Shown here: positions 12,586-28,289 of the stretch, in pieces | How positions within the stretch are numbered: the first letter of the stretch is position 1 | How the letters are laid out: each line of letters opens with the position of its first letter | DNA from: Bacteroidia bacterium | GTDB taxonomy: Bacteria; Bacteroidota; Bacteroidia; CAIKAF01 | DNA length: 64,000 bases | NCBI GenBank assembly: GCA_030427255.1 | Contig: JAUHWY010000016.1 | Span: 1-64,000 of the forward strand | Reading direction: 5' to 3' | Translations under genes and position numbers: made by a program | The notes under the pieces: model-generated | The model's input: the letters and a program-made list of their open reading frames with translations, nothing else | Databases searched by the model: none | Told to the model about the DNA's origin: nothing

Positions 12586-12727
12586 GCGCCAGGGGCCGAA
12601 GGAATAGCCCGGAGGCTTTGGCCCCGTGCAGCTTAGCCGAGGATGCGTAGCTTTGCGAAGCAACCGCAGGCTTAGCTGCACGTGGGCTAAAGCCGAGGAC
12701 TAGCACTGAGGACCCGCCCGGGCGCCC
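12586..12727 (-). repeat. Nested palindromic intergenic element, copy H
   Basis: Read on the minus strand it begins GGGCGCCCGGGCGGGTCC and ends CCTGGCGC, as the other copies do. GTGCAGCTTAGCC pairs with GGCTTAGCTGCAC around a core with TAGCTTTGCGAAGC. Lies directly 3' of the terminator of the minus-strand gene at 12768. Confidence 0.75.
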
Positions 12728-12760
12728 AAAAAAAATCCCCCCAACACGTGGAGGGATTTT
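12728..12760 (-). terminator. Rho-independent terminator of the 1329-aa gene
   Basis: On the minus strand AAAATCCCTCC (12760-12750) pairs with GGGGGGATTTT (12742-12732) with one mismatch, followed by a run of T. It lies 7 bp after the stop of the minus-strand gene at 12768. Confidence 0.8.
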
Positions 12761-15700: not shown

Positions 15701-16757
15701 TCATGGCAAAAAACTCGTTGGTAGAGCGGGTAAAGCTCACCGAAGAGGAGCCTGTACATTCTATGGTAGGGAGCAGCGCACCGCCCACCTCGCAGCCAAA
15801 GCCGGTGGCGTGCAGCACATAGCTTGGGGAGCTGGTTTGAATGTAGGCCACTGGGTTGGCCAAGGTATGGGCATAGGTTTCACCTGCTTGAAGCGTCGCC
15901 ACGGTAGTACCATCAACTTGCACCGTGGTGCCGTTTTGGCTAGCCAATACAAATACTTTATCCGGACCGTTTAAGTAGCCTTTTACCACAATATATTCAT
16001 CGCCAATAACAGGAATTGGTACAATTTGGTCCCCCATAATGTCCATGCACCCGCCATAGGGAGCTCCTCTCATGGAATCGTCGTTGATGGTAATGGCAAT
16101 GGGCTTATCCGAAACTACGGAGGTTCCTTCCAAATGCTGGTTGGCTGCTGTGCTTACCGCTCGGCCGTTCCAGGTTTCGCCTTGATTAAGCTGAATTGTG
16201 AAGCTTTGTCCTCCGGGGTGCCCCACAATATCTTGAGTGGGGGTTATGGTAATGGTGGTGTTGTTTTGAGTGGCCACAATATCAAAACCGGATCGTGCAT
16301 AATTTATATTGGAAAAAAAGTTTTGAAAGGGCAACAGGAATTGAGTTCCCAAAGCATTTTTACCTTTCAAGGTAAAGATGTCGGGGTTGCAGCCACAGCC
16401 GGGGTTTATTTCGTAATAGGCGGTAATCGGTGCCGAGGATCGAATTCTAAACCCCTTAGTTAGTACTGCATTGGGCGGGTCATTTTCTATCATGGTAATC
16501 CATTGAGTCAGGTCAATGGACTGTGCGCTGTTTGGCCCTAGGGTTAAGGTTTGGACCGGGAAGTTGGGGTTTGCCGGTTGTTCTATACGAATGGTGGCCG
16601 CCTGATTAAAGGTGGCGAATCGGAAAAGGATGGGCCGATCCCCATGATTTTGAGCTGCCTCAGGGGCAACGAACCAAAATAGGGTGTCTTTTTGTGCTTT
16701 GGCATTTAGAAAAAGCAAGCACAGGCATGCCGTTAAGAGGGTAAGACGTGTTTTCAT
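12768..16757 (-). CDS. Giant T9SS type B cargo with IgGFc-binding-like N-terminus and 11 Cys repeats
   Basis: 1329 aa. Signal peptide (to about residue 21). Residues 22-430 resemble the IgGFc-binding protein N-terminal domain (DTLFWFVAPEAAQNHGDRPI, GFRIRSSAPITAYYEI, FVLASQNGTTVQVDG). Two PKD/Ig-like modules follow. Then come 11 tandem repeats of about 45-60 residues, each starting with a Cys motif (ICQGDS, LCEGES) and holding SGxY and GCDS, so two cysteines per repeat. The end is a type B sorting domain (VPNTFTPNGDGDNEIFR, IFNRWGDEIF, GWDGT, PVGIYNYRI). This is a long surface stalk, probably adhesive, disulphide-linked by repeat. It has its own promoter and a long structured leader. Confidence 0.9.
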   Translation of the reverse strand: MKTRLTLLTACLCLLFLNAKAQKDTLFWFVAPEAAQNHGDRPILFRFATFNQAATIRIEQPANPNFPVQTLTLGPNSAQSIDLTQWITMIENDPPNAVLTKGFRIRSSAPITAYYEINPGCGCNPDIFTLKGKNALGTQFLLPFQNFFSNINYARSGFDIVATQNNTTITITPTQDIVGHPGGQSFTIQLNQGETWNGRAVSTAANQHLEGTSVVSDKPIAITINDDSMRGAPYGGCMDIMGDQIVPIPVIGDEYIVVKGYLNGPDKVFVLASQNGTTVQVDGTTVATLQAGETYAHTLANPVAYIQTSSPSYVLHATGFGCEVGGALLPTIECTGSSSVSFTRSTNEFFAMNVIVQTGGEGNFNLNGNTGWVSANAFQPVPGSNGAWMYAQINLSNQVPTGQASRLTNSSHLFHMGVVNGGGTSGCRYGYFSDYNAFEFQIPDPQDTVCLGDGFLLQVDRINGATYQWSGPNNFSATGDSVAVQPSVQGHQGQFVIQGNVGVCPIIPDTFELRIHTPPATPQLSYNAPLCQSDTLQLQAQVATGLQYQWTGPSGFISSIQNPSIPSAQAIQAGNYSLVASDSLCASDTAHIMVQVHPVYLDSVTTRICQGDSAWLQNAWQHQSGVYTDHLATTFGCDSIRVTTLFVDPIFNQNQTADICRGQSYSLPDGQQVQQTGTYTSSLQSLWGCDSIIQTQLTVHDTFWTQIQVHICQGDSLAMPNQSYQSQSGTYSFPLQTTAGCDSTVTIHLQVNPVHHIQQQAFICQGQNYTLPSGQTVQSAGTYLDTLSSSLGCDSIMETQLQLWPVYHDSLWVTICEGQSHSLPDGQTVQQSGTYISQLSSIQGCDSLFTTFLSVADTFQTNLQSSICQGDSVQLSNGSHVQQIGLYTTNLQSMAGCDSTILHQVQVWPSYQIAWQADFCQGDSLMLPDQSWTQNPGSFNLTLSTIHGCDSTFLITISQQPSYTQNDSAFICQGDVHTLANGLQVQTPGIHSLTLSTTQGCDSTLNTQLTVWPSHSFTQNFRLCDGSSLSLPNGQVVHQGGVYTQAYQTIRGCDSVFVYQVSLDPVTTQNETIQLCEGESWPTATGNQNQAGTYIDSLQSQFGCDSIYITEIRVAPVLDSLVNLSLCQGQPATFGQQTFHHAGIFERRYQSLAGCDSIWTFLVSEAPEPIDRTPEDTFVCDQSITLWLDPDYDWQWQHGEQGHKIAVSDTGWYHAFTIDPYGCEIRDSIHLRDGCRPTLFVPNTFTPNGDGDNEIFRAYGTRIKSYTLRIFNRWGDEIFTSNKLEHGWDGTHLNQEVPVGIYNYRIEYQVDSPFPFDDSPLQGKVNLIR

Positions 16758-16836
16758 AGGTGAAAATTGTGGGAGTAAAAAAGAACGCTTGGTTCTTAGT
16801 AAGCAACAACCTCCCTTACCCAGACACGCCGGGACG

Positions 16837-16964
16837 AAAAAAAACCCTTTTCGCAGCTAACCCTTGATTGGGCTTAGCAGAAAAGAGTTGGTTTAAAAAA
16901 TGCCCTTAAGGGCAGATTTCTTACCTGGTTTTTTCCGGTGGGAGGCGGTGAAACCAAGAAATCT
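16837..16964 (-). promoter_or_regulatory. Structured 5' leader with serial hairpins and a U tract
   Basis: Transcribed leftward toward the ATG at 16757. First hairpin: AGATTTCTT and GGTTT (16964-16951) pair with AAACC and AAGAAATCT (16931-16914). Next is GCCCTTAAGGGC followed by T6. Then a stem 16885-16847 (CTTTTC-GCTAAGCCC with GGGTTAGC-GAAAAG) is followed by eight T. Two weaker hairpins lie nearer the ATG. The first hairpin starts almost exactly at the predicted transcription start. The design fits an attenuator or riboswitch-like leader, or a short RNA; no known class was recognised. Confidence 0.5.
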
Positions 16965-16968
16965 GAAA

Positions 16969-16999
16969 TAAATTTACAATGGCTTGTTCATAAATCAAA
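16969..16999 (-). promoter_or_regulatory. Promoter TTTG-N19-TAAATTTA
   Basis: On the minus strand TTTG (16999-16996) and TAAATTTA (16976-16969) are 19 bp apart, close to the Bacteroidota consensus with one mismatch. It would start RNA near 16963, about 205 nt before the ATG of the 1329-aa protein. Confidence 0.65.
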
Positions 17000-17095
17000 G
17001 GCCGTTACAAGGATTTAATACAGAAAAAACAGGAGCGAAATCTTACTTGTTTAGAAATGAGGTTTTTGTATGAATAGGCTAGGGGTGGATTTTTT

Positions 17096-17243
17096 GGGCC
17101 GCCATTTCCGGCCCTTACTTTTACTCCGCAGGGGAACAAGGCTTCAGCCAAACCCATGCAGGGAGCTTGCATGCGCGCCGCTCCTGCACGGGTGGCTTCA
17201 GACCTTGTTCCCCTTTGCGGGGTAATCGTGCGGTCCGGGGCGG
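17096..17243 (+). repeat. Nested palindromic intergenic element, copy B
   Basis: Begins GGGCCGCCATTTCCGGCCC and ends CGTGCGGTCCGGGGCGG. CCGCAGGGGAACAAGG pairs with CCTTGTTCCCCTTTGCGG, with further pairing inside (GAAGCC / GGCTTC-like arms). Both ends closely match copies A and C. This is the only copy between divergent genes rather than at a gene's 3' end. Confidence 0.8.
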
Positions 17244-17499
17244 TAAATCTGTGTGGTGCGTGTTCCTAAAGGTAGATTACTGTACCTACTTATATAAAAT
17301 CTCTTTGGGACATTATTCAGCTTTCTGGCATCTCTTTTTGGGCCATTATTTTCAACCTTTTTTTCTCTGGACTTAGGCGTTAAATGTTAAAAAAGCTTCA
17401 TAAAAGCCCTTAAAATAAGGGGTTTCCTAAAAATGGAAACGGTAAGCTTTTGTTTTTCCAACAAATGGAAATTAACTCCAATATGACTACGAAAATGTC

Positions 17500-17530
17500 T
17501 TGATGGAGCTAAGTTGATGGCCTAGGTTTG
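17500..17530 (+). promoter_or_regulatory. Promoter TTG-N20-TAGGTTTG
   Basis: TTG at 17500-17502 and TAGGTTTG at 17523-17530 fit the consensus with a 20-bp spacer. RNA would start near 17536. The 90-nt leader has a GC-rich hairpin (GGCC-GGCTT with AAGCC-GGCC, about 17570-17613) just before the start codon. The rest of 17244-17499 shows only A/T-rich sequence and no gene. Confidence 0.65.
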
Positions 17531-17625
17531 TATCGTCATAAAAGACATAGCAAAATAATAAGCTTGGGCCGGAGGCTTTCATCTCAAGAAAAATAAGCCG
17601 AGGCCGGGGTTAAAAAACAGGAATT

Positions 17626-20600
17626 ATGCAACGTATATTTTTGGTTGCTCTGGCAATGCTTTGCATGCGGGCTGACCTCCTCATGTCTCAAACTACCTTC
17701 GACGAATCGGCCTCTACTTGGGGTGTTTCCAATAATCGGGATAAGGATGGCGGCATTGCTTTCGGCGACTTTGACCGGGATGGAGATGACGATGTGCTGG
17801 TAAATACTTCTTCAAGTAGCTCCTCCAATGGATATACTAGATTGTATCGAAACGATGGAACCCACTTTACGGATGTTACCGATGCCTTAGCAGAAGAGTT
17901 GGAGGATGAAGTTCGAGACCGGCAAGCGCTTTTTGCCGATTTTAACAACGATGGGTATTTAGACATACTAAGGTCTCTTGGTACTTCCGGTTCAGGAAGT
18001 GACCGCCTTCAACTTTTTTTATTCAACAACAACACCGGTGGACCTTACAACAACACCTTTGGCGATGGGTTCGGGGATGATGATCCCATAGGCATTGGTG
18101 AGGGCGGTGGCGTAGACATTTCTGTGGATGACGCCAATTTTGAAGGCGTAAATGCTTTTGACATGGATGGGGACGGCGATTTGGATATCCTTATCGAAAA
18201 CCACTCTTACGGCATTGACATTCTTCGTAATAACCTTATTGATCATATTACAGGAAATAAAACAGTAGTTACTCCCTCCACTCATTTTACGCATATTACC
18301 CCCGGAAGCGGCACTTCCTTAGGGTTGCAACAATCGGGTGGAGGCTTAGAAGGAGACTACAGCGCAGTGGGCGATTTGGACAACGACGGTTGGGTCGACT
18401 TGGTTGCCCGCAAACGCAATGGAAACGATGTTTACTTTTCTACCGGAAACGGCTTTACAGGGGGAATTGACCTCCAAAACGCAGACAACAACGACAAAGG
18501 AGGTATTGGCCTTTACGACTTGGACAACGACGGCGATTTGGATATTGTTTGGACTTCAGACCCCGGGAATTACATTTACAGGAACAATGGCGACCGCACA
18601 TTTACTCTAATGAACAATGCTTTGGGAGGTTCTTTCCAAGGCAATGGCGGCGTAGACGGCGTGGCTGGTGGCGATGTGGACAACGATGGGGACATCGATT
18701 TGTTTTTTACAGACAATAATGGCTCTGTCTTGTTTATCAATAACTTGTTAGGCCCGGGATCAAACGGCGCCTTCTCCTTTACCGACCACAATTTTGTCAA
18801 TTCCGGAACAAATACCCACAATGGGGAGGGGGTGGCCATGGCGGATGTGGACGGAGACGGTGACTTAGACATTTTTGAAATCAAAGATGGTAACAACAGC
18901 TCCAGCCGTAGCGACAGGTTGTGGATCAATCGCTTGTATGACGGAGCAACACCACAGGGGGCTAAGGCTTACCTCACCGTTGATGTTAAAGAAATACGCA
19001 CCCATCGCATGTCCGGCGGTCTAGATCGCCCGGCAAATGGGGCCATGGTGGTACTTAAGGATTGCAATGGAAATATTCTTTCCGGTGTGCGCATGGTGGA
19101 CGGAGGCTCAGGTCATGGAAGTCAAAATAGCCAACGGCTTCATTTTGGTTTGCCTAATGGCCCCAACCATCTATACACGGTAGAAGTTCGGTACCCCAAT
19201 GAGCAAACCTATCCGGGCTTGGTGCAGCCTGTGGTTTCCAAAGCGATAAATCCGGCGCTTGCAGGAACAAACCATTTAGAGGTTCTTCCCCACGAACCCA
19301 ATGTGGCTTGCGAGGGCTACTTAGATAACGATCGCGACGGAATAATTAACCTTACCGATCTTGACGACGATAACGACGGGATCCTAGACGTGGAAGAAGT
19401 GTGTGGAGCAGGTGCCGCTAACTATAGTTGCCTTAGCACCTTGATTTTTGATTCCGGAAATAATGCCGTAAACCCTTCCGGTGACCTTGATGGTGACGGA
19501 GTGCCCAATGCTTTGGATTCCAGAGACCCGAACTTTACAAACACCTGTGCCGATTTGAACTTGGATGGTCGTTGCGATGCTTTAGATGCAAGGTTGGATG
19601 CAGATGGGGACGGCATTCCTAACTTTTTTGACCTCGACACCGATGGCGACGGACTTACTGACCTCTTAGAGGCGGGTGGTTTAGATTCTTTGGGGGCAGG
19701 AACCATAATGGGAAACTTTGTAGACAACAATGGAAACGGTTTGCACGACACCTACGATGCAAATAATGGAGGCTTCAGTTTGGCTTTGACCGATACCGAT
19801 CAAGACAATATCCCCGACTTTTTAGATTTAGACAGCGATAACGATGGCATTGCCGATGTGTTGGAAAGCAATGGAACAGATGCCGATGGAGACGGGCGGG
19901 TAGACGGAACCGCGGATGCTGATAGAGATGGCTTAATTGACGCAGTAGACGCCGACACAAACAACGATGGAATTGTCGACAATGCGGCAGGGGTGCTTTT
20001 GCGCACAGGGCTGGATTCGAACAACGACGGCGCTCCGGATGCTTGGCCCTTTTCCGACAACGATCAGGACTTCCTACCCGCTTTTCGCGACTTAGACAGC
20101 GACAACGACGGTTTGGCTGATTTGGCCGAAGCCGGTGGAGTGGACACCAATGGAGATGGCAGAGTAGATCTTTTTGCAGATGCGGATGAAGACGGATTAG
20201 TGGATACCTACGACTTGGATCAAGGCGGAAATCCATTGCAAAACCCGGATCAGGATGGAGATTTGATTCCGGACAGCAGAGACCTAGACAGCGATAACGA
20301 TGGTTTGGCCGATATTTTGGAAGCCGGCGGAGAGGATTTGAATAATGACGGAATGATCGATGGCCTTTTTGCCGATGCCGACGCAGATGGCTTTTCTGAC
20401 TTGGTTGACGGAGATGCCGACAACGACGGAACCCCAGAAAATACAGCTTCCGTTCTAGTCCTTACACAAAGTGATGTAAATAATGACGGCCGGCCGGAAG
20501 GCTATGTAAGCGGAGATTTTGACCTGGATGGTATGTTGAATAGTGCCGACTTAGACAGCGACAACGATGGAATTCTAGATGCGCGCGAAAATGAATTCGA

Positions 20601-21732
20601 CGATGGGGATTTCAATGGCACCGTGGATGGAGCGCCAACCGCCGGTGCTAAAGCCAACGGATGGAGCAACTTGTTTGACGGTTTAGTTGGCGGCAATACT
20701 CCGGCACGTCCCAATACCGATGGAGATGCCCTTCCTAATTTCCTGGATATTGACACCGATGGCGATGGTATTGTAGACTTGGTTGAGGGCCAATCCACGG
20801 CAGGTTTTGTGGCCCCCCAGCGTGTAGACAGCGACAGAGATGGTATTGACAATGCCTTTGACAACGACAATGCCGCTTTTGCAGGGGGCGCAAACAATGG
20901 AATTACACCGGTCAATACCGATGGCCCCGGCTCCTACCCAGATTTTATAGATACCGATTCAGACAACGACAATATCCCGGATGCTGTTGAGGCTTGGGAT
21001 GCCAATGGCGATGGTGTGATTAGTGGTTCAGAACCCCAAGTGGTCAGCCCTGCAGATGCCGATAACGATGGCTTGGACGATGTGTTTGACCAAATCAACA
21101 GAAACGGCAACCCCGGATTTAATCCTTTGAATAACAGCAATCCAATTGGCTTTCCCGACAACCAAGCTCCCGGAGGAGACCGCGACTGGAGAGACTCAGG
21201 GCCAATTACACCGCTTCCTTTGGTATGGGGTGATTTTGAAGCTGTTTGGAGCGGAATGGATGCACAACTCAACTGGAGTACCCTAACTGAAATCAACACC
21301 AGTCATTTTGAAATTCAGCATAGCTCGGATATGGTGCATTGGCAGGTCATCGGAGAAACCGACGCTGCCGGCTATTCCGCAACAACACTAAGCTATGCCT
21401 TTACCCACAAAAACCCCGGAACCGGCGTGCATTACTACCGATTGCGTCAGATTGATTTCGATGGGGCTTTTGACTTTTCTGAAATCCGAAGCCTTAGTTC
21501 GGACGAAAATTCAGGAGCCCAATGGTGGCTGGTTTATCCCAATCCGGTAAAAAGTGTAGTTCAAATCAACGACTTTTCCGGGACATATAAGGTGGTGGAT
21601 TTGAGCGGTAAAGTCATCAAAATTGGACAAACGGGTCAATCTTTAAACCTTTCGGACTTGTCAAAAGGTGTTTATATTTTGGAATTAGAGCAAAATGGAC
21701 TGGTTCAGTACAGCCGAATTTTGAAAAATTAA
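17626..21732 (+). CDS. Giant VCBS/ASPIC/TSP3-repeat T9SS type A protein
   Basis: 1368 aa. Signal peptide to about residue 21. Residues 22-450 hold FG-GAP/VCBS beta-propeller repeats (GIAFGDFDRDGDDDVLV, AFDMDGDGDLDILIEN, VGDLDNDGWVDLVARK). Residues 455-550 are an ASPIC/UnbV domain (LKDCNGNILSGVRMVDGGSG, HFGLPNG). Residues 555-1170 are thrombospondin type 3 repeats, each with the calcium loop DxDxDGxxD (DLDSDNDGLADLAEAGG). Then comes a beta-sandwich common in Bacteroidota (LNWSTLTEINTSHFEIQHS) and a type A sorting domain (VYPNPVKSVVQI, KGVYILEL). It should be a stiff calcium-binding surface protein. The next gene is its enlarged tandem paralogue. Confidence 0.9.
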   Translation: MQRIFLVALAMLCMRADLLMSQTTFDESASTWGVSNNRDKDGGIAFGDFDRDGDDDVLVNTSSSSSSNGYTRLYRNDGTHFTDVTDALAEELEDEVRDRQALFADFNNDGYLDILRSLGTSGSGSDRLQLFLFNNNTGGPYNNTFGDGFGDDDPIGIGEGGGVDISVDDANFEGVNAFDMDGDGDLDILIENHSYGIDILRNNLIDHITGNKTVVTPSTHFTHITPGSGTSLGLQQSGGGLEGDYSAVGDLDNDGWVDLVARKRNGNDVYFSTGNGFTGGIDLQNADNNDKGGIGLYDLDNDGDLDIVWTSDPGNYIYRNNGDRTFTLMNNALGGSFQGNGGVDGVAGGDVDNDGDIDLFFTDNNGSVLFINNLLGPGSNGAFSFTDHNFVNSGTNTHNGEGVAMADVDGDGDLDIFEIKDGNNSSSRSDRLWINRLYDGATPQGAKAYLTVDVKEIRTHRMSGGLDRPANGAMVVLKDCNGNILSGVRMVDGGSGHGSQNSQRLHFGLPNGPNHLYTVEVRYPNEQTYPGLVQPVVSKAINPALAGTNHLEVLPHEPNVACEGYLDNDRDGIINLTDLDDDNDGILDVEEVCGAGAANYSCLSTLIFDSGNNAVNPSGDLDGDGVPNALDSRDPNFTNTCADLNLDGRCDALDARLDADGDGIPNFFDLDTDGDGLTDLLEAGGLDSLGAGTIMGNFVDNNGNGLHDTYDANNGGFSLALTDTDQDNIPDFLDLDSDNDGIADVLESNGTDADGDGRVDGTADADRDGLIDAVDADTNNDGIVDNAAGVLLRTGLDSNNDGAPDAWPFSDNDQDFLPAFRDLDSDNDGLADLAEAGGVDTNGDGRVDLFADADEDGLVDTYDLDQGGNPLQNPDQDGDLIPDSRDLDSDNDGLADILEAGGEDLNNDGMIDGLFADADADGFSDLVDGDADNDGTPENTASVLVLTQSDVNNDGRPEGYVSGDFDLDGMLNSADLDSDNDGILDARENEFDDGDFNGTVDGAPTAGAKANGWSNLFDGLVGGNTPARPNTDGDALPNFLDIDTDGDGIVDLVEGQSTAGFVAPQRVDSDRDGIDNAFDNDNAAFAGGANNGITPVNTDGPGSYPDFIDTDSDNDNIPDAVEAWDANGDGVISGSEPQVVSPADADNDGLDDVFDQINRNGNPGFNPLNNSNPIGFPDNQAPGGDRDWRDSGPITPLPLVWGDFEAVWSGMDAQLNWSTLTEINTSHFEIQHSSDMVHWQVIGETDAAGYSATTLSYAFTHKNPGTGVHYYRLRQIDFDGAFDFSEIRSLSSDENSGAQWWLVYPNPVKSVVQINDFSGTYKVVDLSGKVIKIGQTGQSLNLSDLSKGVYILELEQNGLVQYSRILKN

Positions 21733-21932: not shown

Positions 21933-24900
21933 ATGCAACGATATTCGATGCGTTGGCTCTATGCCTTAATGTTCATTTGCCTTGCCACTTCAAGTTTCGG
22001 CCAAACAACCAACCAATTCAGCGAAAGTGCAGCGTCTTGGAATGTAGATATTGGAGGAAACAAAGACGGTGGGGTGGCCTTCGGAGACTATGACGACGAT
22101 GGCGATCCTGACATTTTTCTAAACACCAACAACGGAACCGGCGACTCCCGAGTTTACCGAAACGACGGAACTTCTTATACCGATGTAACCACCACCGTGG
22201 CAAATGGTTTGTTAAGCCAAACCATGGAACGTCAGGCGGTCTGGGCAGATTTTAATAACGACGGCCGCAAAGACTTTGCCCGTTCCTTAGGGTCATCCGG
22301 AGGTTCCGACAAAATCCAAATATGGCTCAGTAACCCGGGCCCTACCTTTGGAGATGGTGCAGGGGGAACTACTCCCATTACCGTTCGTGCTTCCGGTGGC
22401 ATCATTAACATTGGCGCAAACAACATCGAAGGTTTGGGAGCCATTGACTTCGATGGCGATGGAGACCTTGACATCATGATTGAAAACCATAACTATGGTA
22501 TCGATTTGTTGAGGAACAACCGCATCAACCATACCACAGGAGCCTTGGTTGCGGTTACTCCGGCCACGCATTTTACCATCATTACCACAGGTTGTGGAGA
22601 CCCCTGCTACGGCCTAGATCAATCCGCCACCGATGGTGACTATTCTGCGGTGGGCGATATGGACAACGACGGCTGGGTGGACATTGTGGCTAGAAAGCAC
22701 GATGGAGACGATGTGTACTACAATACAGGAACCAGTTTTGGTTTTGCCACCAACTTAGATGATGCAGCAAATGGGGACAAAGGAGGCATTGGCCTATACG
22801 ACCTCGATAACGACGGAGATTTGGATATTGTTTGGACATCTGCTCCAGGCAACCGAATTTACCGAAACAACGGAGACCGCACCTGGACCGATATGACCAC
22901 CGCCTTTGATGCGAGCTTTAGAACAAATACAGCTGTGGATGGAGTAACCGGTGGAGATATAGACAACGACGGCGATATTGACTTGTTCTTTACAGACAAT
23001 GGCTCCAGCTTTATGTTCATAAACCAACTGAACGACCCGGTTGCCGGGCCAAATACCGGAAGTACTTTTGACTTTAACAATTACAGTTTTGTTGCTTCCG
23101 GAACCAACAACGGCGACGGCGAAGGTTGTGCCATGGCCGATGTAGACGGCGATGGCGATTTGGACATTTATGTGAACATTAATGGCTCAGCCAATAAGCT
23201 TTGGATAAATAACCTCTACAATGGAGCTACTCCATTTGCCAACAAAAACTACATCGAAGTAGATATTTCTGAAATTCGTCCCAACTTAATGACCGGCGGA
23301 AACAATCGCCCATACATTGGTGCAACCGCCGTGTTGAAGGATTGCTCAGGCAACATCATTGGTCCGCTCCAAAGCGTAGATGGTGGATCCGGGCATGGAA
23401 GCCAAAACGAGGCTACCTTGCACTTTGGCTTACCCAACGGAAACAATGCCCTCTATTTTGTGGAGATTGCCTTCCCGAACGAATTGACCTATTCTACACC
23501 TTCCACAAGGCGCTTGATTGTTTCCAAAGCAATAAATCCTACCATTGCAGGTACGGCCCAAATGGAAGTGCTTCCCCATGAGCCGGATATTTCATGCGAC
23601 AATTACTTCGACAACGACGGCGATGGCGTTTACAACCCCGATGATTTAGACGACGATAACGATGGAATTCCTGATTACATTGAAATTTGCGGCCCTTCTG
23701 CAACCGATTTCTCTTGCCTTGCCGGAATCTTAACGGATGGCGTAAATCCCTTGGATCCCTCCGGTGACGAAGATGGCGATGGAATTCCCAATTACATAGA
23801 TGCCCGTGACCCCGGTGTGGTTCATGCCGCTTGCGTTGATGCTAACCTTGATGGGTACTGCGATGCCATTAATCCTGCTTTGGATGCGGATCAAGACAGC
23901 ATTCCCGATTTCTTTGACCTCGATACCGACAACGATGGAGTGGCCGATATTATTGAAGCCGGTGGCGTGGATACCGACGGCGACGGCCGCGTAGACGGTG
24001 CATTTGCCGATGGCGATAACGATGGCCTCCACAACACCTACGATACCGACAACGGAGGAGATGACATTGCTTTCCTTGATTCCGATGGCGACGGTATTTA
24101 CAATTTTGAAGATTTGGACTCCGACAACGACGGTATTCCTGATGTCATTGAAATGGGAGGTACCGATGCAAATGACGATGGCCGTCAAGACGAAACCGCC
24201 GATAGCGACCGGGACGGTTTGGACGATGCCATTGATGGCGATGTGGGCAACGACGGAACCGCAGAAAATACGGCAGCAGCTCTTGTGCTTACAGGCACGG
24301 ATACAGATGCCGATGGACGACCAAACTCAATTACCCGCGGGGATGTGGATGGCGACGGATACCCTAGCTTTATTGACCTGGATTCCGACAACGATGGAAA
24401 ACAAGACATCATTGAAGCAGGTGGAGTTGATGCCAACGATGATGGCGTAGTAGATGGGGCCTTCTCCGACCCGGATGGGGACGGATTACACACCACCTAC
24501 GATGCCAACGATGGGGGAACTTCTATCGACAACACAGATTCCGACAACGATGGCATTCCCGATGCCCTTTCTTTGGATTCCGATGGCGATGGTATTCCGG
24601 ATATTATTGAAATGGACGGAATCGATACCGACGGAAACGGTATGGTAGATGGCGCTTATACCGACACAGATACCGATGGTTGGCATGACTTCTACGATCC
24701 CAATAATGGAGGTTTCGCCATTTCGGATCCCGATACCGATGGCGATGGAATTCGTGACGTAATTGACTTGGATACCGACAACGACGGAATTCCGGACGTA
24801 ATTGAAGTGGGAGGTACCGACGCCAACGACGATGGCCGCCTTGATGCGACTGCTGATACCGATAACGACGGCTTGGACGATTCCGTGGATTCCGATATAG

Positions 24901-27900
24901 GCAACGACAATACCGCAGAGAACACCTCTTTGGCCCTTCGTTTAACCGGAGGCGATGGAACTACCGTAGACGGAGCCCCGGATACCTATGTGAATGGCGA
25001 TACCGATGGCGACGGCCAGCAAGACGAACATGACTTAGATTCCGATGGCGATGGAATCCCTGATATTATTGAAGCCGGTGGCATCGATACCGATGGAAAT
25101 GGTACCGTAGATGGTGCATTTGCCGATGGCGATGGCGACGGTTTGCACAGCACCTATGACCCCGACGACGGTGGACATGCCATCGAAAACCGCGACTCCG
25201 ACGGAGACGGGGTGCTTAACTTCAAAGACCTCGATTCGGACAACGACGGCATTACCGACGTAACTGAAGCAGGGGGTACCGATGGCAATCAAGACGGCAT
25301 TCTAGATCCAACAGGCGATGCAGACAACGATGGCCTTGACGATGCCGTTGACCCGGATGCCGATGGAAACGGCTCCCTCGAAAGTCCTAACGCTCCATTG
25401 TTTACCACAGGGGGCGATGGCACAACCGTAGATGGTGCGCCGGAAAGCTACGTTACCATTACCGGCAAACAAAACCCCAATCCCGATGGAGACCTATTTG
25501 CCAATCCTTACGATAAGGACTCCGACGGCGATGGCCTTACCGACCTTGCAGAGGCCGGAGGCGTGGACACCAATGGCGACGGTACTGTAGACGGCGCATT
25601 TTCCGATTCGGACGAGGATGGTCTCCATGATACCTACGACGTGAACGACGGCGGCGACCATTTGATCCCTGTTAATTCTGATGCAGATCTTTTAGTAGAC
25701 TACCTTGACCTAGATTCGGACAACGACGGAATTACTGATGTAGCCGAGTCTGGAGGAACCGATGCCGACGACAATGGCATTCAGGATGGGGCAGCAGATA
25801 CCGACAACGACGGACTACAAGATGCTGTAGACGGTGATGTTGGAAATGATGGCGTGGCAGAGAATACGGCAGCTGCCCTTATTCTTACAGGTACCGATAC
25901 CGACAGCGATGGCATTCCCAACAGCTTGACCCGTGGAGACCTTGATGGCGACAACCGTTTCAATTTCCGAGATCTTGATGCCGACAACGATGGAGTTCAA
26001 GATATACTCGAAGCCGGTGGCGTAGATGCCAACAACGACGGAATTGTAGACGGAGCTTTTGCCGACCCCGACAACGACGGCCTACACACTACCTACGATG
26101 CCAACAATGGGGGTACAGCTATTGATAATACCGATACCGATGGAGACAATATTCCCAACGCCAGGTCTTTGGATAGCGACGGCGACGGTATTCCCGACCT
26201 TATCGAATACGGCGGAATCGATACCGATGGCAATGGACTCATTGATGGAGCCATGGCAGATGGAGATACCGACGGTTGGCACGATCTCTACGACGTAAAC
26301 GATGGAGGTTTTGCTATTCCTCAAACCGACTTTGACGGCGATGGTATTCTTGACGCCCTTGATTTAGATTCCGACAACGACGGCATTCCGGATGTACTTG
26401 AGGCCGGTGGCCTGGATGCTAATGACGATGGTATATTGGACGCTACAGCAGATACCGATAACGATGGCTTAGACGATTCCAAAGACTCCGATATTGGCAA
26501 CGACAATACCGCTGAAAACACCGCTATTGCAGCTCGTCTTACCGGAGGGGATGGAGTCTCCGTAGATGGACGACCCGAAAGCTTTACCCGCGGCGATGGC
26601 GATGGCGACAACCTACGGAGCGAAAACGACCTCGACAGCGATAACGACGGAATTACCGACCTTATTGAGGCGCGCGGAGTAGATACCAATGGAGATGGTA
26701 TTGTGGATGGCCTCTTTTCGGATGGCGATAGCGATGGCTTGCACGACACCTACGATGCCAACGACGGTGGAGACGCAATAAACTTCCCCGATTCCGACAA
26801 CGACGACATACCGAATACACAAGACCTGGACAGCGACAACGATGGATACCCGGATATTCTTGAAGTTGGAGGTACCGATGCAGACAACGACGGCATGGTG
26901 GATGCTGTTGGCGATATCGACAACGACGGCTTAATCGATGCGCTTGACGGCGATGTAGGCAACGATGGTACAACCGAAAATACGGCCGGTGCAAGTGTAA
27001 TTTCAGGTGTGGATGGCGATTTCGATGGTATTCCTGACAATTACATCCGAGGCGACTTCGACTTAGATGGTTTCTTGAACAGCCAAGACTTGGATTCCGA
27101 CAACGACGGCATCTTGGATGTAAGAGAAAACAACTTTGCCGATTCCAATTACGATGGCATTGCAGATGGGGCCCCAACAGGAGGTGCTAAGGCCAATGGT
27201 TGGAGCGATGCCTTTGATGGAAATGCGGGCGGTTCTTTCCCCAATCCCCTAAATAACGACTTAAATACTGCCGGTGCCAATGGCGATGCCAACCTGAATT
27301 ACTTGGATATTGATTCGGACAACGATGGTATCCCTGACATCATTGAAGGACAATCTACCGCCGGTTTTATTGCCCCTGCCGGAGCTGATGCCGATGGTGA
27401 CGGTATTGACGACGCCTTTGACAACAACGACGCTGAGTTTGGCGGAGATCCCAACAATGGCATTGCGCCTGTAAACACCGAAGGACCCGGATCTATTCCC
27501 GATTACATTGACTTTGACTCCGACAACGACGGCATCTACGACGATTTGGAAGGGTGGGATGCCAATGCCAATGGAGTGTTGGATGGCCCTGAGCCTTATT
27601 GGTCCGGCGTGGATTCGGACGGCGACGGTTTAGACGATGTCTATGATGCCATTGTGCGAGGTTCTGACCCGGGAAATAATCCCCTGAATAGCGCTACCCC
27701 CATCGGCTTCCCCGACAACCAAGCTCCGGGCGGTGACCGCGACTGGAGAGATCCGGGCCCAATTACCCCTCTTCCTTTGGTTTGGGGAGCCTTCACCGCA
27801 GAGTGGATGGGACAACAAGGCTTGTTGCAATGGACCACCCTTTCCGAAATAAACACCAGTCACTTCGAAATATGGCACAGTACAGATTTAGAAAACTGGA

Positions 27901-28289
27901 ATTTGTTAGGCGAAACCCAAGCCGCCGGATTCTCCTCTGTAGAGCTTAGTTACCAATTCATGCATGTGAATCCGGACATGAAGATGAACTACTATCGCAT
28001 CCGTCAACTGGATTTGGATGGCGCATGGGAATACTCCGAAATTCGAACCTTGCAGGGAGCCGGTCAAGAGGGCAACCACTGGCAAGTGTATCCTAATCCT
28101 ATACAAAACCAAGCCTTTATTCCCGGATTCAAAGGCGAGTTCATCCTTATGAATTTGAGTGGACAAGTTCTTATGCAAGGCAACGCCCACGACCAAATTC
28201 AGGGACTGGAACAATTACCCGCCGGCATGTATGTGCTACAACTCAACATGGAAGGCATTCAGCAGCACATTCGCTTGCTGAAAAACTGA
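21933..28289 (+). CDS. Giant VCBS/ASPIC/TSP3-repeat T9SS type A protein, enlarged paralogue
   Basis: 2118 aa. Same order of domains as its upstream neighbour: signal peptide (to about residue 23), VCBS/FG-GAP propeller (to about 440), ASPIC/UnbV (LKDCSGNIIGPLQSVDGGSG), thrombospondin type 3 calcium repeats (about 550-1920), the LQWTTLSEINTSHFEIWHS beta-sandwich and a type A sorting domain (VYPNPIQNQAFIPG, AGMYVLQL). The extra 750 residues lie wholly in the calcium-repeat region. About six super-units end in an ENTAAALVLTG-like stretch, and units 2 and 5 share a segment with GWHDxYD that others lack, separated by about 1.6 kb, which points to a block duplication. The reverse strand carries long chance frames. 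Confidence 0.9.
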   Translation: MQRYSMRWLYALMFICLATSSFGQTTNQFSESAASWNVDIGGNKDGGVAFGDYDDDGDPDIFLNTNNGTGDSRVYRNDGTSYTDVTTTVANGLLSQTMERQAVWADFNNDGRKDFARSLGSSGGSDKIQIWLSNPGPTFGDGAGGTTPITVRASGGIINIGANNIEGLGAIDFDGDGDLDIMIENHNYGIDLLRNNRINHTTGALVAVTPATHFTIITTGCGDPCYGLDQSATDGDYSAVGDMDNDGWVDIVARKHDGDDVYYNTGTSFGFATNLDDAANGDKGGIGLYDLDNDGDLDIVWTSAPGNRIYRNNGDRTWTDMTTAFDASFRTNTAVDGVTGGDIDNDGDIDLFFTDNGSSFMFINQLNDPVAGPNTGSTFDFNNYSFVASGTNNGDGEGCAMADVDGDGDLDIYVNINGSANKLWINNLYNGATPFANKNYIEVDISEIRPNLMTGGNNRPYIGATAVLKDCSGNIIGPLQSVDGGSGHGSQNEATLHFGLPNGNNALYFVEIAFPNELTYSTPSTRRLIVSKAINPTIAGTAQMEVLPHEPDISCDNYFDNDGDGVYNPDDLDDDNDGIPDYIEICGPSATDFSCLAGILTDGVNPLDPSGDEDGDGIPNYIDARDPGVVHAACVDANLDGYCDAINPALDADQDSIPDFFDLDTDNDGVADIIEAGGVDTDGDGRVDGAFADGDNDGLHNTYDTDNGGDDIAFLDSDGDGIYNFEDLDSDNDGIPDVIEMGGTDANDDGRQDETADSDRDGLDDAIDGDVGNDGTAENTAAALVLTGTDTDADGRPNSITRGDVDGDGYPSFIDLDSDNDGKQDIIEAGGVDANDDGVVDGAFSDPDGDGLHTTYDANDGGTSIDNTDSDNDGIPDALSLDSDGDGIPDIIEMDGIDTDGNGMVDGAYTDTDTDGWHDFYDPNNGGFAISDPDTDGDGIRDVIDLDTDNDGIPDVIEVGGTDANDDGRLDATADTDNDGLDDSVDSDIGNDNTAENTSLALRLTGGDGTTVDGAPDTYVNGDTDGDGQQDEHDLDSDGDGIPDIIEAGGIDTDGNGTVDGAFADGDGDGLHSTYDPDDGGHAIENRDSDGDGVLNFKDLDSDNDGITDVTEAGGTDGNQDGILDPTGDADNDGLDDAVDPDADGNGSLESPNAPLFTTGGDGTTVDGAPESYVTITGKQNPNPDGDLFANPYDKDSDGDGLTDLAEAGGVDTNGDGTVDGAFSDSDEDGLHDTYDVNDGGDHLIPVNSDADLLVDYLDLDSDNDGITDVAESGGTDADDNGIQDGAADTDNDGLQDAVDGDVGNDGVAENTAAALILTGTDTDSDGIPNSLTRGDLDGDNRFNFRDLDADNDGVQDILEAGGVDANNDGIVDGAFADPDNDGLHTTYDANNGGTAIDNTDTDGDNIPNARSLDSDGDGIPDLIEYGGIDTDGNGLIDGAMADGDTDGWHDLYDVNDGGFAIPQTDFDGDGILDALDLDSDNDGIPDVLEAGGLDANDDGILDATADTDNDGLDDSKDSDIGNDNTAENTAIAARLTGGDGVSVDGRPESFTRGDGDGDNLRSENDLDSDNDGITDLIEARGVDTNGDGIVDGLFSDGDSDGLHDTYDANDGGDAINFPDSDNDDIPNTQDLDSDNDGYPDILEVGGTDADNDGMVDAVGDIDNDGLIDALDGDVGNDGTTENTAGASVISGVDGDFDGIPDNYIRGDFDLDGFLNSQDLDSDNDGILDVRENNFADSNYDGIADGAPTGGAKANGWSDAFDGNAGGSFPNPLNNDLNTAGANGDANLNYLDIDSDNDGIPDIIEGQSTAGFIAPAGADADGDGIDDAFDNNDAEFGGDPNNGIAPVNTEGPGSIPDYIDFDSDNDGIYDDLEGWDANANGVLDGPEPYWSGVDSDGDGLDDVYDAIVRGSDPGNNPLNSATPIGFPDNQAPGGDRDWRDPGPITPLPLVWGAFTAEWMGQQGLLQWTTLSEINTSHFEIWHSTDLENWNLLGETQAAGFSSVELSYQFMHVNPDMKMNYYRIRQLDLDGAWEYSEIRTLQGAGQEGNHWQVYPNPIQNQAFIPGFKGEFILMNLSGQVLMQGNAHDQIQGLEQLPAGMYVLQLNMEGIQQHIRLLKN

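Follow-up and report, generated by a model that had tools for sequence, protein, structure and literature searches.

We propose that the 207 nt preceding the gene for a 1329-aa surface protein in an uncultured flavobacterium form a transcribed leader, in which transcription ends prematurely at a strong terminator-like hairpin (H3), either constitutively or under regulation, and the gene is expressed by readthrough. We hold this reading tentatively, at a little under an even chance. It builds on the structures themselves, the strength of H3 relative to background, the conservation of a 5'-terminal hairpin (H1) in one sister locus and the lack of any other recognisable sigma-A site on the strand; from these we infer an active promoter, termination at H3 in the cell and expression of the gene from transcripts that pass it. 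Transcription would begin near 16964 from a promoter-like site, and the nascent RNA would first form H1, probably a hairpin for 5'-end stability or binding. Many transcripts would then end at H3 near 16837, yielding an RNA of ~130 nt, and the 4-kb gene would be supplied by polymerases reading through H3.

The surface-protein gene and its upstream region

Coordinates refer to the window, the whole 64,000-nt stretch of DNA that was analysed (Table 1). The surface protein carries an IgGFc_binding domain (PF17517) at residues 134-400 (E 1.7e-35) and a CHU_C type IX secretion signal (PF13585) at residues 1240-1309 (E 6.8e-18; both by hmmscan), together with repeats and, judged by eye, a signal-peptide-like N-terminus. 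Its 5' neighbour (17626-21732) is divergent, and H3 therefore terminates no annotated gene; the minus strand of the region upstream of the surface-protein gene contains no ORF longer than 55 aa. Read along that strand, the 207-nt leader is laid out as promoter-like site, H1, H2, H3, H4 and ATG. Sequence and folding agree with a preliminary description of this DNA as to the position and make-up of the elements it described; H4 was missing from its list. Two short TTTCC...GGAAA hairpins, 32 nt apart (TTTCCTAAAAATGGAAA, TTTCCAACAAATGGAAA), were also observed in the divergent intergenic region, at 17410-17471.

Table 1. Features of the surface-protein gene and of the region 5' of it
Feature	Positions	Strand	Description
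Surface-protein gene, 1329 aa	12768-16757	minus	From the ORF list; ATG at 16757
Promoter-like site, TTTG-N19-TAAATTTA	16969-16999	minus	Bacteroidota sigma-A type; from sequence and rule scan
H1, hairpin at the predicted 5' end of the transcript	16914-16964	minus	-13.8 kcal/mol, z -2.6
H2, TGCCCTTAAGGGCA (TGCCC-UUAA-GGGCA) at 16914-16901, then T6	16895-16914	minus	-7.8 kcal/mol, z -1.6; weak terminator-like
H3, 16-pair hairpin at 16887-16845, then T8 at 16844-16837	16837-16887	minus	-19.1 kcal/mol, z -3.6
H4, weak AAGAAC/GTTCTT, then T4, just 5' of the ATG	16777-16797	minus	-3.9 kcal/mol
27-codon TTG-initiated frame, stop in the 5' arm of H3	16874-16957	minus	Candidate leader peptide, not favoured

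The promoter-like site consists of TTTG (16999-16996), 19 nt of spacer and TAAATTTA (16976-16969, minus strand), whose final position deviates from TAnnTTTG, the -7 consensus known from F. psychrophilum (PMC9723704). Under a rule of TTG-N17..21-TAnnTTTG with at least 5 of 6 matches in the -7 box, the minus strand across 17640-16740 yields this one match only, and no sigma-A-like match lies between H3 and the ATG. Across the window this rule finds 0.54 matches per kb of strand, so the match by itself is weak and its position is its support. A promoter that departs from the sigma-A consensus is possible between H3 and the ATG. It should be noted that a 207-nt leader would be long for flavobacteria, since the median 5' UTR of F. 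psychrophilum is 24 nt (PMC9723704). No inverted pair of at least 12 nt flanks the promoter within 16700-17640, and we rejected a phase-variable (invertible) promoter on that ground.

Folding of the proposed leader and strength of H3 against background

The leader as a whole folds with a z of -3.1. The H1 stem has 8 + 6 pairs and a 4-nt bulge, with 3 more pairs inside; H2 is GCCCTTAAGGGC followed by T6, and the pair probabilities of H3 are about 1. When the RNA is folded at increasing lengths, H1, then H2, then H3 appears, each compatible with the others, and at 130 nt all three coexist at -42.0 kcal/mol, as against -21.5 kcal/mol for the best fold without H3. Because the fold lacking H3 is about 20 kcal/mol weaker, termination would be the default, and no built-in switch is visible. 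The 5' arm of H1 (UUGGUUU) has alternative downstream partners, AAACCAA or AACCAAG. At full length, the minimum-energy structure opens H1 so that this arm pairs with AACCAAG far downstream; we rejected this pairing as a switch, as it forms only once polymerase is beyond H3. Since no mutually exclusive cis antiterminator is predicted at the decision point (folding at 130 nt), regulated readthrough, if real, would need a trans factor; where such a factor operates an attenuator, a cis antiterminator structure is dispensable. Rfam 15 gave nothing credible on the leader at gathering or permissive thresholds, the best match being suhB (E 0.22, 19.6 bits against a cut-off of 41), and neither an aptamer, nor a conserved leader peptide, nor a tRNA relic was found in the leader.

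None of 200 shuffles was as stable as H3. Of 1000 dinucleotide shuffles of the leader, 17.4% contained two lax terminator-like sites or more, 2.8% contained three or more, and 2.1% contained one strict site, defined by a stem of -12 kcal/mol or lower and at least 7 T in 8. The genome background consisted of 60 stretches and the window, together 1.1 Mb or about a third of the same genome, processed with a simple ORF caller; tRNAs and small genes escape this caller, so that some of the background sites may belong to genes it did not see. Of the divergent 5' regions 60 nt or longer (n = 212), 57 (27%) have at least one lax site, 7 have two or more and 3 have a strict one. H3 is the only case in these 212 regions of a stem of -17 kcal/mol or lower combined with 7 or more T in 8. 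At gene 3' ends (n = 343) the corresponding numbers in the same 1.1 Mb are 15 for strict sites and 2 for stems at or below -17 kcal/mol.

Based on the shuffles and the genome counts, we conclude that H3 is an outlier in strength and that the number of terminators is not. H3 exceeds chance, as does H1 to a lesser degree; having two terminators in the same leader hardly does on its own, and H2 and H4 are ordinary. The preliminary description had taken two terminator-like structures as the mark of attenuation. That argument is partly supported: H3 is strong and no upstream gene needs a terminator, H2 is unremarkable, and at least two lax sites arise in 17% of shuffles. Judged at the sequence level, H3 is an intrinsic-terminator structure between promoter and start codon, and a strong H3 between the only recognisable promoter-like site and the ATG, in a divergent region, fits a leader with premature termination.

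Conservation among relatives

The leader occurs once in its own genome, where no further copy was found, and short matches to the H1 loop elsewhere in the sampled part lack the hairpin context. One of 60 relatives, G004 of the same genus, has a match, and the H1 core pattern occurs in 2 of 395 genomes of the class, namely the present one (G000) and G004. The compared genomes are MAG-derived, and the H1 comparison is this one pair. The G004 locus is syntenic: beyond the gene remnant lies the same radical-SAM, lysine-2,3-aminomutase-like gene (assigned by eye), and the opposite flank encodes a relative of the 21933-28289 protein of the window. There, a deletion of ~3.8 kb has brought H1 directly against the final ~106 codons of the gene, with the joint at a shared GAAATC[T/C]GC, and H2 and H3 therefore cannot be compared with G004; neither has a counterpart in any relative examined. 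The remnant (L003 1539-1899) contains an in-frame stop and a frameshift and, at 90% DNA identity, is the true counterpart of the surface-protein gene. G004 also has an intact copy on contig C12; this copy is an older paralogue, at 71% across the C-terminal stretch, and its upstream region is unrelated.

H1 is identical between the two genomes at 46 of 51 positions in the BLAST alignment and at 40 of 51 with MAFFT, which places the loop gaps differently. The spacer beyond the promoter (17094-17003) is 60% identical (55/92) and the promoter 73%. The difference between H1 and spacer gives a Fisher p of 1e-4 with BLAST and 0.03 with the MAFFT gap placement. The G004 version of H1 (L003 1539-1587) folds alike (-10.5 kcal/mol, z -2.3). 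Its two stem changes lie at the open end and are non-compensatory, the last of them possibly stemming from the deletion joint, and no covarying pair was found in H1 between G000 and G004.

Two other elements near the gene were observed in the same comparison. A GC-rich palindromic element at 17095-17240, with a 12-bp inverted repeat (AGGGGAACAAGG/CCTTGTTCCCCT) at 17130-17214, is 91% identical between G000 and G004, and two neighbouring pairs of its stem change on both sides, from AA/TT to GG/CC. Its ends are conserved in G001-G004 (at other loci in G001-G003) and its middle hairpin varies; 1.1 Mb of its own genome holds one full copy only. It may be either a dispersed structured repeat or a candidate RNA. 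The second is a GC-rich intergenic stretch 3' of the gene at 12600-12756 (GGGCGCCCGGGCGGGTCCTC...CTTCGGCCCCTGGCG), which is nearly identical in G004 and better conserved there than the adjoining pseudogene.

No intact homologue carries the leader, whether the C12 copy in G004, those of G001-G003 and G005 or the GTDB-contig loci, all of which differ in their upstream regions; the gene family therefore does not need it. Among the GTDB-contig loci, 23 of 24 of which were read, leaders are short or a codirectional gene lies upstream, and some paralogues in the genus lie downstream of a tRNA-like gene with its own terminator. The second paralogues in G001-G003 and G005 (L015, L016, L017, L018) were seen by eye to sit directly 3' of an apparent tRNA-Gln with a terminator. 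In G007 (L010/L037) a hairpin followed by T9 stands about 80 nt 5' of the ATG, with a sequence unrelated to the leader. No structure that is conserved and covaries was found ahead of related genes, the leader being present in G000 and in part in G004. With the leader missing from the intact homologues examined and H1 alone recurring in G004, the preliminary description's own rule for refutation (no conservation in relatives) leans, in its sequence half, toward refutation. The control by a ligand, RNA or protein that it envisaged gains no support, with no antiterminator, no Rfam family and no presence at intact homologues.

Alternative explanations and comparison with known systems

Absence from intact homologues, a single H1 comparison and the failure to find an antiterminator, aptamer or conserved leader peptide all count against a leader. 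The region may instead be a lineage-specific stretch without regulatory role, in which H1 and H3 are inherited or due to chance, termination is weak or constant, and persistence reflects the recent split of two lineages. The frequency of lax sites (27% of divergent 5' regions, with three or more in 2.8% of leader shuffles), the unexceptional H2, the lack of the leader at the intact homologues examined and the G004 locus that is already without the gene are all as such a stretch would have them, but it accounts poorly for the outlying strength of H3 and for the better conservation of H1 than of the spacer, and we consider it somewhat unlikely.

We judge it unlikely, to a greater degree, that the region is a stand-alone small RNA gene of ~130 nt between divergent genes (promoter 16999-16969, H1, H2 and H3 as terminator), with the surface-protein gene transcribed from its own unrecognised promoter after H3. 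Intergenic small RNAs have this build, with promoter, structured body and strong terminator packed into 130 nt; GibS of B. thetaiotaomicron, about 145 nt long, has both a start site and a terminator (PMC7366714). H1 is also kept in G004. However, the gene would need a promoter and none of sigma-A type lies between H3 and the ATG; the candidate is single copy, with its H1 core in 2 of 395 class genomes, and the G004 version is cut after H1. Attenuation by a leader peptide, in which translation of the 27-codon TTG frame (16957-16874) would block folding of H3, is highly improbable: the frame's stop does sit within the H3 stem, and such attenuation is reported in flavobacteria ahead of amino-acid biosynthesis operons (PMC9723704), but the start codon is weak, there is no run of one regulatory amino acid, the frame is broken at its third codon in G004 (TTG GTT TAA), though that copy is decayed, and the target gene is not biosynthetic.

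Returning to the leader with premature termination, we regard as quite doubtful its most elaborate form, in which H1 would bind a protein or small RNA allowing polymerase past H3, making the region a genus-specific attenuation leader and an on/off switch of a large type IX secreted, IgGFc-binding-like protein. Just one further known genome shares the leader, which cannot be claimed as a novel type of RNA switch. If it does control the gene, a flavobacterial surface protein would be governed by premature termination, a mode of control little studied outside model Bacteroidota. At present the case is unproven and confined to two genomes, and it serves mainly as a testable candidate from a lineage for which RNA data are scarce.

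Leaders read by NusG paralogues (LoaP, UpxY) stand ahead of long operons and carry a 5' hairpin followed by terminators. The present region shares the 5' hairpin and the terminators before a long coding region; it differs in that its genome has a single match to the NusG domain (PF02357), and thus no specialised NusG paralogue to read the leader, and we rejected control of this type. Bacteroidota intergenic small RNAs such as GibS (PMC7366714) are alike in length (~130-145 nt), in having their own promoter and hairpins and in ending at an intrinsic terminator. The likeness is one of anatomy, as here a large gene on the same strand follows 79 nt past the terminator and the parts occur in two genomes only. 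Transcription attenuators and other terminator-controlled mRNA leaders differ in their mutually exclusive antiterminator, aptamer or conserved leader peptide, none of which was identified here, where termination is predicted from sequence; with them the region shares a promoter, a structured leader and an intrinsic terminator before the start codon.
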